Assembly: GCF_025446935.1 (NCBI RefSeq)
Contig: NZ_JAOEGN010000015.1
Coordinates: 1-45,214 of the forward strand
Direction of reading: 5' to 3'
DNA: 45,214 nucleotides
Source of the DNA: Paracholeplasma vituli
GTDB lineage: Bacteria > Bacillota_I > Bacilli_A > Acholeplasmatales > UBA5453
Shown: piece by piece, positions 15,346-21,342 of the stretch
Position numbering within the stretch: the first letter of the stretch is position 1
How the letters are laid out: each line of letters opens with the position of its first letter
Translations under genes and position numbers: made by a program
Notes under the pieces: generated by a model
What the model was told of the DNA's origin: nothing
The model's database searches: none
What the model saw: only the letters and a program-made list of their open reading frames with translations

Positions 15346-16572
15346 ATGAAATGGATTTTGTTAATACTAATCTTTATTATGTTTGTTTTTGATACGACCC
15401 TTTCCGTTCTAAATTATCGTAATCGTAAGGCAAAAATGCCGGATTCGGTTAAGGATATCTACGACCCTGAAAAGTACGAATCCTGGTTAAAGTACAACAT
15501 GGCAAACTTTAAAATGGGTATGATTGGTAGTGTCCTATCTACCGCACTCATGATTCTATTGTTGTCCATAAACGCATTTGGCTGGTTAGAACAAGTCATC
15601 GACCCACTATCTACTTCGGTTGGTGTAGAAACGCTACTATTCATGTTGTTTTATTATCTATTTACATGGGTCATTTCATTACCGCTTGAATATTATCAAA
15701 TATTTGAAATTGAAGCTTCATTCGGATTCAATAAGATGACCAAAAAACTCTTTTGGATTGACCAACTAAAAGGCATTCTACTTACCGTTATTTTTGGTGG
15801 TGGTATCATTGGTTTACTCCATTTAGTCTACCGTCAGTTTGAATCCAATGTCCTTGGATTCGCGATCTTAAGCTATTTAATCCTAACCATCATTATGATT
15901 CTAGTAATGTTACTTTCAAAGTATTTTATGCGTTGATTCAACAAAATTACGCCTTTAGAAGAAGGTCCACTAAAAACCGCGATTGATGCTTTAGGGGAAC
16001 GCTTAGGCTTTTCTGTGAAGAAAATCTTCGTGTTAGACGCCTCTAAGCGTTCAACCAAATTAAATGCATACTTTAGCGGAATTGGTCATCAAAAGGAAGT
16101 TGTTCTATTTGATACACTGATTGCGAAACTAACTGAAGCTGAAATCTTAGCTGTACTGGCTCATGAACTTGGTCACGCAACCCATAAAGACACCCTTAAG
16201 GGACTCTTTAGAACCTTACTACTCTTGTTCGTTTATGTGGGCATGCTCACCGTTATTTTGTTAAATCCAATTCTATTTAAGGCCTTTGGATTATCCGGTG
16301 TTCATTTTGGATTCACACTGGTATTGATGTTTATCCTATTAGAACCTGTTCAAATTTTGATTAGTCTATTCACCAATTACGAATCCCGTAAAGCGGAATA
16401 TAAAGCGGATCGTTTCGCAGCTCTCAATACATCTAAAGACGCGATGATTTCAGCCCTTCGAAAACTCACTGTAGAAAATTTCTCAAACTTAACGCCACAC
16501 CCACTTTACGTTAAAATACATTATAGTCATCCACCGATTGCGAGTCGAATCGAATCGATTGAACGCGGTTAA
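15346..16572 (+). pseudogene. M48 (Ste24/CAAX-type) zinc metalloprotease with an in-frame TGA
   Basis: One reading frame of 409 codons, broken only by TGA at 15934-15936. Before it are the N-terminal membrane segments of Ste24-like proteases (residues 1-196). After it come FNKITPLEEG, a hallmark of this family, then HELGHATHKD with the HExxH zinc motif near residue 273, and a further YKADRFAA helix holding the third zinc ligand. Relatives usually read 'LFNKFTPLEEG' here, so the ancestral codon was probably TTA (Leu) or TGG (Trp). UGA is a stop elsewhere in the window, so recoding is unlikely. As written the protein would be split before its active site: a fresh pseudogene or a base-call error. 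Terminated by the shared hairpin at 16580. Confidence 0.85.
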
Positions 16573-17657: not shown

Positions 17658-18613
17658 ATGAGAAAATGGTGGATTAGACTCACATTAATATTTACGATGT
17701 TACTCGTATTTTTTGTTGTCTTATTCTACAGGCGCGACTATTCAAGTGCATATGTTCAAAGTTTGTATCTATCCGAACAATCGCATCTTATTGACCTTTC
17801 CATTAATTCTTTAGAGGGAGAACCCCTATCAATCGAAACCCATTATATGGATTTTGGTGATCCTGCTCAACCGGTAATTCTTCTGCTACATGGGGCATTC
17901 TCATCCTCACATACCTTCATACCTTGAGCACTAAAATTATCCGACAGTATCGTGTTATATTGATGGATTTGCCGTATTTTGGTTTAACTGGTCAATTTGT
18001 AGATAATCTCTCTAGTTATTGCCGTAGTGCAGCTTTAGTTAAGTCCCTGTTGGATGCGCTTGACATAACCCATGTGCATATTGCTGGTAATTCGTTAGGG
18101 GGGGCTGTCGCTTGGAATTTTGCGGGAAACTATCCTGAAATGACTGAATCACTATTACTCATCGATGCTGTACCGCCGATTCTAGAAAGACGCTCTTTTG
18201 GGTTACTGACTGAACCATGGTTGGCTGGGATTCTCAGTCAGTTTACACCGCGTTTTCTCATCAAACGACTCCTCAGAACAGCCTATGGTGACCCTACCAA
18301 ACTTACGGATGATAGTGTCCATATCATTTTACGCAAAGAGGGTACAAGGAAAGCTATTTTGACCACAAAGCCTGAACCTGTATCCGATGCTGAATTGTTA
18401 TCTGTACTGGAAAATGTGACTGCTCCAACGTTTATAATTTGGGGTGAAGAGGATACTTGGATTCCCATTGTGGCCTTATAAATTTTCAAAACAGCCTTAA
18501 ACATTTCAGATACAAACATTCATGTCTTTCCAGATTTAGGCCATCTGCCGATGGAAGAATCACCTGATCAGTCCTTAGTCCCTTACCAATCATTTCTAGA
18601 TTCTATTTTGTGA
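17658..18613 (+). pseudogene. Alpha/beta hydrolase pseudogene with a frameshift and a nonsense codon
   Basis: The N-terminal part has a membrane anchor and a HGAFSSSHTFIP oxyanion-loop segment, then hits TGA at 17925-17927. A single missing G (TGGAGC read as TGAGC) restores the frame, continuing as STKIIRQYRVILMDLPYFG. AGNSLGGAVAWNFA is the nucleophile elbow with the catalytic Ser, and IIWGEEDTWIP holds the acid region. A TAA follows at 18479-18481; the same frame then gives HVFPDLGHLPMEE with the catalytic His and ends at TGA 18611-18613. With both breaks repaired it would be a full hydrolase of about 318 residues. Two independent lesions favour true inactivation. A ribosome site (AAGAGGTG) remains at the start. 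Confidence 0.88.
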
Positions 18614-19002: not shown

Positions 19003-19031
19003 AAAAAGCGTGAGAAATTCTCACACTTTTT
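19003..19031. terminator. Bidirectional terminator
   Basis: GTGAG (19010-19014) pairs with CTCAC (19020-19024) and, after one mismatch, AAAAAG pairs with CTTTTT (19026-19031). It ends the four-helix membrane protein gene on the plus strand and the riboswitch-controlled gene on the minus strand, whose stop lies within it. Confidence 0.85.
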
Positions 19032-19308
19032 TTTGTAAAAACTCGTCTAGGCTATACAGTTTAGCACCATGATACACTTGTTCTGCGACCACATGGACGC
19101 CCACATAACCAATTTGTTTATCCTTTTGATTCAATGGTAACGCAATGAATCCGGTTCGGGGTTTGAAGCTTGCAGACATCCCATACCCTTTTTCAATCAA
19201 TTGGATAGAGAACGATTCAAATCGACTTAAATCATCTAACCTCACAATATCCAAAAATACCCTGTTTCTGTTTTTTTCTGGTGTCTGATCACCGAATGGA
19301 AATACCAT
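19021..19308 (-). CDS. Unrecognised 95-residue protein under a SAM riboswitch
   Basis: I do not recognise a family. The protein starts MVFPFGDQTPEKNRNRVFLD, has no signal or membrane segment, is slightly basic, and looks like one small alpha/beta domain (strands around VFLDIVRL, GFIALPL and IGYVGVHVV). AGGAGG sits seven bases before the ATG at 19308, so an upstream in-frame ATG at 19332 is rejected. Its leader is a SAM-I riboswitch with its own promoter and terminator, so expression should rise when S-adenosylmethionine is low. That points to a role in methionine, SAM or sulfur metabolism, but only by association. It has no operon partner. Confidence 0.75.
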   Translation of the reverse strand: MVFPFGDQTPEKNRNRVFLDIVRLDDLSRFESFSIQLIEKGYGMSASFKPRTGFIALPLNQKDKQIGYVGVHVVAEQVYHGAKLYSLDEFLQKKV

Positions 19309-19331
19309 TTTACTGCCTCCTTTTTTGGCCA

Positions 19332-19365
19332 TAAAATGAAAGAAAACCCATCGATAGATGGGTTT
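19332..19365 (-). terminator. Expression-platform terminator of the SAM riboswitch
   Basis: On the minus strand AAACCCATC pairs with GATGGGTTT (19357-19365 with 19344-19352), followed by TTCTTTC. The ACCCATC arm is also complementary to the GATGGG at the 3' side of the aptamer, so the aptamer and terminator can compete through an antiterminator. Confidence 0.8.
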
Positions 19366-19371
19366 ATGCGC

Positions 19372-19465
19372 AGTTTATCCCATCTTTCAAGCGTTAGCAC
19401 CTTGCCTAAGTAGGTTGCTGAAGGGTCAATGAGCTTGTCTCTCGCCTTCTCTTTATGGTAACTTT
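19372..19465 (-). ncRNA. SAM-I (S-box) riboswitch
   Basis: On the minus strand the order AAAGAGAAGG, CGAGAGAC, GCTCATTGAC, CCTTCAGCAACC, AGGTGCTAA and GATGGG matches the S-box aptamer. GAGAAGG pairs with CCTTC, CGAG with GCTC next to the kink-turn AGAC, and GCAACC and AGGTGCTAA are the near-invariant core strands of the SAM pocket. In this class, SAM binding stabilises the aptamer, frees the terminator and turns expression off. The only downstream gene is the unrecognised protein at 19021-19308. Confidence 0.92.
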
Positions 19466-19494
19466 ATTATAGTTTATTCAGTTCTATTTAGCAA
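19466..19494 (-). promoter_or_regulatory. Promoter of the SAM riboswitch transcript
   Basis: TTGCTA (19489-19494), a 17-base spacer and TATAAT (19466-19471) on the minus strand. The -35 box begins four bases past the glpK stop codon, so the riboswitch gene has its own transcript and does not rely on read-through from glpK. Confidence 0.8.
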
Positions 19495-19497
19495 TGA

Positions 19498-21342
<1,845 letters not shown>

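Follow-up and report, generated by a model that had tools for sequence, protein, structure and literature searches.

A short orphan gene of Paracholeplasma vituli, encoding a protein of 95 residues, appears to be governed by a SAM-I (S-box) OFF switch that lacks helix P4 and would control this one gene at two levels, transcription and translation; we put the probability of this reading at roughly 0.6. When SAM is bound, helix P1 would be closed and the terminator would form, and any RNA escaping termination would fold its start site into a hairpin. When SAM is absent, P1 would open and each of its strands would take a new partner: the 3′ strand would pair with the 5′ arm of the terminator to form an antiterminator, and the 5′ strand would pair with the segment after the terminator to form a helix, referred to here as the lock, that keeps this segment off the Shine-Dalgarno (SD) sequence and start codon. 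Production of the protein would be confined to times when SAM, and behind it methionine, is scarce. Computation shows the aptamer, the promoter, the terminator and the complementary segments, the conservation of the gene and of its association with the switch, and the occurrence of the lock and start-site hairpin throughout the leader class; SAM binding, the direction of regulation, the use of both levels and the role of the protein we infer from this anatomy.

The leader and the gene it precedes

The window (the whole 45,214-nucleotide stretch of P. vituli DNA analysed) contains a single Rfam match, to RF00162 (SAM-I) at 19461-19377 on the minus strand (cmscan; 49.9 bits against a gathering cut-off of 44.4, E 1.3e-8, full model 1-108), which agrees with the original prediction of a SAM-I riboswitch here; RF01725 (SAM-I/IV) gave zero matches across the whole P. 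vituli genome at E<=0.001. The aptamer (19461..19377) has P1, P2a, P2b, P3, the loop-2/J3-4 pseudoknot and the conserved core AGAG, AGCAACC and GGUGC. It had been described as a complete S-box, and this needs qualifying because, although the SAM core, P1-P3 and the pseudoknot are present, helix P4 is deleted in the RF00162 alignment, with 17 model positions missing.

The promoter, terminator and antiterminator expected for this gene are likewise found, all on the minus strand. A sigma-70-type promoter at 19494..19466 (-35 TTGCTA at 19494-19489, a 17-nt spacer, and -10 TATAAT at 19471-19466) matches the consensus at 10 of 12 positions, and the orthologous leaders have a TATAAT-like -10 at a roughly equivalent position. 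The intrinsic terminator at 19365..19344 has a 9-bp stem with four G-C pairs and a U-rich tail (AAACCCAUC-UAUC-GAUGGGUUU as RNA, AAACCCATC-TATC-GATGGGTTT as DNA). The P1 3′ strand GAUGGG (GATGGG as DNA, 19384..19379) doubles as the antiterminator 5′ arm, being complementary to CCCAUC in the terminator 5′ arm (CCCATC, 19362-19357), and the two are paired in the minimum-energy fold.

Two further helices are predicted on the same strand. The lock 5′ arm (CCAUAAAGAGAAGG, 19458..19445) consists of the P1 5′ strand, J1/2 and the start of P2, and forms a predicted 13-bp duplex of -13.1 kcal/mol (shuffle p 0.010) with the 3′ arm (CUUUCAUUUUAUGG, 19342..19329). In the predicted start-site hairpin (19338..19306), the arms are CAUUUUAUGGCC (19338-19327) and GGCAGUAAAAUG (19317-19306), and the base-paired region takes in the AUG together with the end of the SD sequence AAGGAGG, which is read directly at 19322..19316; the 5′ arm of the hairpin is common to the lock. 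Of 200 dinucleotide shuffles, 197 fold less well than the leader, whose three states lie within 4 kcal/mol of one another, as a switch requires (P1 plus terminator, -38.0; antiterminator, -39.9; antiterminator plus lock, -36.3 kcal/mol), the antiterminator plus lock not being the most stable ligand-free state.

The orphan gene itself (MVFPFGDQTPEK...AEQVYHGAKLYSLDEFLQKKV) has 95 codons and extends from 19308 to 19021 on the minus strand, stop included (coding part 19308..19024, stop 19023-19021), and is closed by a terminator at 19031..19003 on the same strand with a 13-bp stem and a T run. An alternative longer open reading frame begins at 19332 (minus strand), but we prefer the 19308 start because AAGGAGG lies just before it and the corresponding MxFPF is where all five homologues start. 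The gene was expected to belong to no known family, and searches of Pfam, NCBIfam, PHROGs and PDB sequences with the protein and its alignment indeed returned zero relatives. Orthologues are present in five of the 100 genomes searched, that of P. vituli and four congeneric ones (35-44% identity), corresponding to five of the seven genomes of that genus. A genome-wide scan with the single protein gave no matches, one with the alignment gave three metagenome-assembled genomes (MAGs) of the same genus, and RF00162 matches upstream of the orphan orthologues were reconfirmed in three named MAGs. An order-wide profile search found genus members and chance matches only; a profile match in G024, considered as a homologue, was read as a TrpR/YerC-like protein and rejected.

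Across the five proteins 20 residues are invariant, clustered in MxFPF and AEQxxHGA. The closest pair has a dN/dS of 0.16, and the remaining pairs for which it could be computed range over 0.12-0.57; this purifying selection identifies the orphan gene as encoding a real protein. An AlphaFold2 model built from the five sequences (mean pLDDT 68) has the element order b-a-b-b-a-b-a, and we considered an ACT/NIL-type ligand-binding domain because of its b-a-b-b-a-b order; a Foldseek comparison of this low-confidence model with the PDB gave no ACT/NIL-type or other fold match.

The pairing of gene and switch is conserved, as the original prediction requires: in five of five genus orthologues an RF00162 match lies 60-75 nt upstream. 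The glpK open reading frame (21063..19498, minus strand) lies directly upstream of the orphan gene on the same strand, and this order too is kept in all five genomes that hold the gene, which lends itself to the alternative that the protein is unconnected to SAM and serves glycerol metabolism, the switch having been captured by a gene beside glpK. We consider this improbable, since a promoter of its own precedes the orphan gene, the genes on its far side vary between species, and the two genus members without it (G003 and G005) retain glpK with no S-box orphan gene beside it. In G003 glpK is kept and the only S-box is at metK; in G005 glpK is elsewhere and a third S-box precedes a different protein of ~96 residues with no detectable similarity to the 95-residue protein. 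Comparison did not establish homology of the small proteins of G005, G007 and the phages described below to the 95-residue protein. It had also been argued that the gene is not read through from glpK. Such read-through may still occur: although the promoter seems genuine, we find no terminator in the stretch from the glpK stop (19498-19500) to the S-box, and a read-through RNA would simply carry the riboswitch as well.

Two other genes beside the orphan gene are each split into two open reading frames, an alpha/beta hydrolase gene at 17658-18481 (its homologue in L006 is intact at 320 residues) and a peptidase-like gene at 15346-16572, reflecting either decay or sequencing errors.

The lock and start-site hairpin across leaders

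In leaders of the orphan type, the stretch right after the terminator is complementary to the P1 5′ strand and J1/2. Of 38 orphan-type leaders 28 have a lock duplex with p<=0.05, as against 2 of 68 metK, metN or priA leaders (Fisher p 5e-15); shuffling was by single base and the leaders within a clade are related, so that pooled p values are not independent tests. The lock was first seen in the Acholeplasmatales, where 14 of 22 orphan leaders have it; the later leaders, from phages, virus contigs, Mycoplasmopsis and relatives, were gathered after the idea was formed, by aptamer pattern or similarity only, and 14 of 16 have it. Among the controls it is found in none of 12 metN, none of 39 metK-like and two of 17 priA leaders, a contrast unchanged by a few priA leaders that the script filed as metK-like.

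The start-site hairpin has a similar distribution. The lock 3′ arm is also complementary to the SD sequence or start codon in 32 of 38 orphan-type leaders, and the SD sequence is masked by 3 kcal/mol or more in 16 of 22 Acholeplasmatales orphan leaders and in all 16 of the later set, but in only one of 68 controls (0/12 metN, 0/39 metK-like, 1/17 priA). Class-wide support for this hairpin is much stronger than that from the P. vituli leader alone, in which SD opening costs 6.8 kcal/mol and is not significant against shuffles (p 0.104).

The two arms of the lock also vary together, with partners GAGUGCGC/GCGCUC in phages, GUAACUA/UAGUUAC in Mycoplasmopsis and CUACCA/UGGUAG in Acholeplasmatales. 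A column-wise covariation count was dropped because MAFFT failed to align the 3′ segment, and was replaced by a comparison of native with swapped arms. Native arms pair at -13.0 kcal/mol and swapped arms at -9.9 kcal/mol; the permutation p is 5e-5, and 5.5e-4 when each distinct 5′ arm is represented by a single leader. Clade mean duplexes are -16.8 kcal/mol for Rum/Rum, against -7.4 and -5.4 kcal/mol when swapped, and -17.7 kcal/mol for Myco/Myco, against -8.8 and -8.3 kcal/mol, corresponding to a between-clade swap penalty of about 8-11 kcal/mol for phage and Mycoplasmopsis arms.

These observations bear on whether the leader is simply an ordinary transcription-terminating S-box, in which the lock and start-site hairpin are functionless by-products of A/T-rich sequence. 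The standard parts would suffice for SAM control, the genus member G002 keeps the gene and the switch with neither lock nor SD hairpin, another (G004) has a weak lock (p 0.106), and the P. vituli hairpin is not significant by itself. We nonetheless regard this explanation as fairly unlikely, because the extra helices near-completely separate orphan leaders from metK, metN and priA leaders in the same A/T-rich genomes, and because native arms outpair swapped ones.

The lock might instead link the 5′ end of the RNA with the start region chiefly for stability of the full-length mRNA or for fixing the ON state, and not for release of the ribosome site. Judging by the -10 sequence, transcription would begin only a few bases from the 5′ arm of the lock, and lock formation would then sequester the 5′ terminus; moreover, the ligand-free minimum-energy fold contains both lock and antiterminator in ph_L152, ph_L154, ph_L145 and G024. 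Such a role is unlikely to be the main one, however, as it leaves unexplained why the lock 3′ arm is complementary to the SD sequence or start codon in so many leaders. Two-level control by the leader remains the reading that we favour.

Aptamer subtype, targets and methionine supply

Helix P4 is absent from all priA, metN and orphan aptamers that were aligned or read, and is present in the metK leader of the P. vituli genome. Among 33 distinct rows, 98.3% of cells in the P4-less structure are paired and 12 of 23 pairs have changed on both sides, a number reached by none of 500 shuffles; with the partners shifted one column, the pairing falls to half. The pseudoknot between the P2 loop and J3-4 is CAAG/CUUG in 33 of 33 rows, and since it is invariant it receives no covariation support. 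The absence of P4 and the unusual targets would fit a change of ligand, with the aptamer sensing a SAM relative or other metabolite and so explaining the non-methionine targets. This seems highly improbable, given that nearly all rows retain the core AGAG, AGCAACC and GGUGC and that metN and a metK operon, at which one would expect SAM to be sensed, also lie behind a P4-less aptamer of this kind.

Several related sequences were also seen. The metN leaders L003, L110 and L089 form another P4-less variety: their core pair is a compensated ACCAACC/GGUGGU, and their pseudoknot, UAUAGC/GCUAUA, is longer. A SAM-I-like leader with an apparent P4 hairpin precedes an 80-residue hypothetical protein in Priestia megaterium plasmid pPmC-129-3 (L148 4001-4418). 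Plasmid pA53P4 of the gammaproteobacterium Psychrobacter (L146 4996-5052) carries only the 5′ half of an aptamer, 91% identical to that of P. vituli and probably a truncated, dead copy.

The P. vituli genome has three SAM-I sites, at metK, metN and the orphan gene, and metK and metN as co-regulated genes fit a SAM/methionine response of the switch. Two methionine-synthase families, MetE-type and homocysteine S-methyltransferase, are absent from the P. vituli genome, and P. vituli is therefore probably a methionine auxotroph that imports methionine. In 100 genomes of the order, the 103 SAM-I sites read for downstream genes include 38 at metK, 12 at metN (as assigned by script), many at priA and a set of orphans. 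We considered priA as a new S-box target and rejected it at G033, the one locus read far enough (L162 196-6189): there a P4-less S-box heads priA-fmt-X-metK, X being a membrane protein, an order from which we conclude that the target is still SAM synthesis, with metK the likely target and priA a passenger. A P4-less S-box likewise precedes priA in other genomes of the same group of the order (f3).

Leaders of the orphan class are found in Acholeplasmatales, Mycoplasmopsis and gut phages before unrelated genes, including small Acholeplasmatales families, AAA ATPases, a relative of N-formylglutamate amidohydrolase, a MORN-repeat protein, DUF4116 proteins and phage genes. The original prediction took the S-box as a clue that the orphan protein acts in the methionine pathway; this is unsupported, since the same type of leader also precedes clearly unrelated genes and therefore signals that a gene responds to low SAM, not that it belongs to the biosynthetic pathway. 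The 95-residue protein likely answers SAM shortage, and our best guess is that it assists the SAM-starvation response as a small cytosolic protein, for example by restraining a SAM consumer or aiding methionine uptake.

In Ruminococcus-type phages the leader is followed by a protein of ~98-100 residues, whose gene is convergent with C5 and N6/N4 DNA methyltransferase genes in four of four loci with enough flank (L151 1336-5666; L144, L149, L150). One of these four (L151) also has a SAM synthetase gene, and an S-adenosylmethionine synthetase sequence is present in L156 too. An AlphaFold2 model of the phage protein has the same element order, b-a-b-b-a-b-a, as that of the 95-residue protein. We do not claim homology, because both models are modest and sequence comparison of the two detected no relation (hhalign probability 0.3%). 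The phage model matched nothing in the PDB, and among viral structures gave weak matches to uncharacterised phage proteins only (best E 0.02).

Two further occurrences are of note. In Mycoplasmopsis and related sequences (L145, L138-L141) the same switch precedes a gene annotated DUF4116 in M. cynos; translated with table 11 the gene gives ~55 residues, probably because TGA does not act as a stop in these genomes. The Acholeplasmatales genome G015 has five P4-less S-boxes, two of them before MoxR-like AAA ATPases, on contigs that look like mobile elements (C58, C83, C26, C21).

Taken across these genomes, we lean slightly towards a broader proposal, that a SAM-I subtype re-uses both P1 strands in the absence of SAM to give coherent two-level repression, and that it has spread through Mollicutes and Firmicutes phages, where it would guard an array of small proteins answering SAM shortage, which in phages lie beside DNA methyltransferases that consume SAM and in some cases beside a phage metK. 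The orphan gene would be an entry to this class, in which minimal bacteria and phages place a P4-less SAM-I leader with an additional gate at translation ahead of uncharacterised proteins. It raises the questions of how one helix may serve two decisions through its two strands, and of small proteins that would be kept tightly shut until SAM drops, in phages and in methionine-auxotrophic bacteria; the DNA methyltransferases and SAM synthetase beside the phage copies point to SAM supply in phage-host conflict.

Comparison with known systems

The literature that we covered on S-boxes in Acholeplasma or other Mollicutes, on priA and on two-gate SAM-I switches held no description of this design, which is weak evidence of novelty as subscription papers were mostly outside that coverage. 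The P. vituli leader resembles SAM-I riboswitches of RF00162 in its score above gathering, P1-P3, binding core, loop-2/J3-4 pseudoknot, terminator and antiterminator, and differs in that P4 is absent and that leaders of the orphan type add the lock helix and the start-site hairpin. SAM-IV (RF00634) also has no P4 and has the same core, with extra parts (PMC6890682), so that a P4-less aptamer with a common core is shared with P. vituli; however, neither the alignment nor the fold of the P. vituli aptamer gives any sign of the SAM-IV P5 and second pseudoknot (PK-2) after P1, and RF00162 was the best match, with RF00634 scored only via clan competition.

Control of translation by a SAM-I riboswitch is described for the met operon of Xanthomonas, where the expression platform hides the Shine-Dalgarno sequence and acts mainly on translation, and where uncharged initiator tRNA is sensed (PMC7270179); the P. 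vituli leader differs in having a terminator too and in the predicted re-use of both P1 strands. Dual control of transcription and translation has been reported for the c-di-GMP riboswitch Bc1 (PMC11218506) and for the SAM-II riboswitches of metA and metZ in Sinorhizobium (PMC9373788). Those are other aptamer classes with incoherent control, whereas in P. vituli both levels would respond in the same sense, each through one strand of a single helix. The S-box-driven small proteins of gut phages (~98-100 residues, alignment A3) have the same leader architecture, and differ from P. vituli in lying beside DNA methyltransferases.
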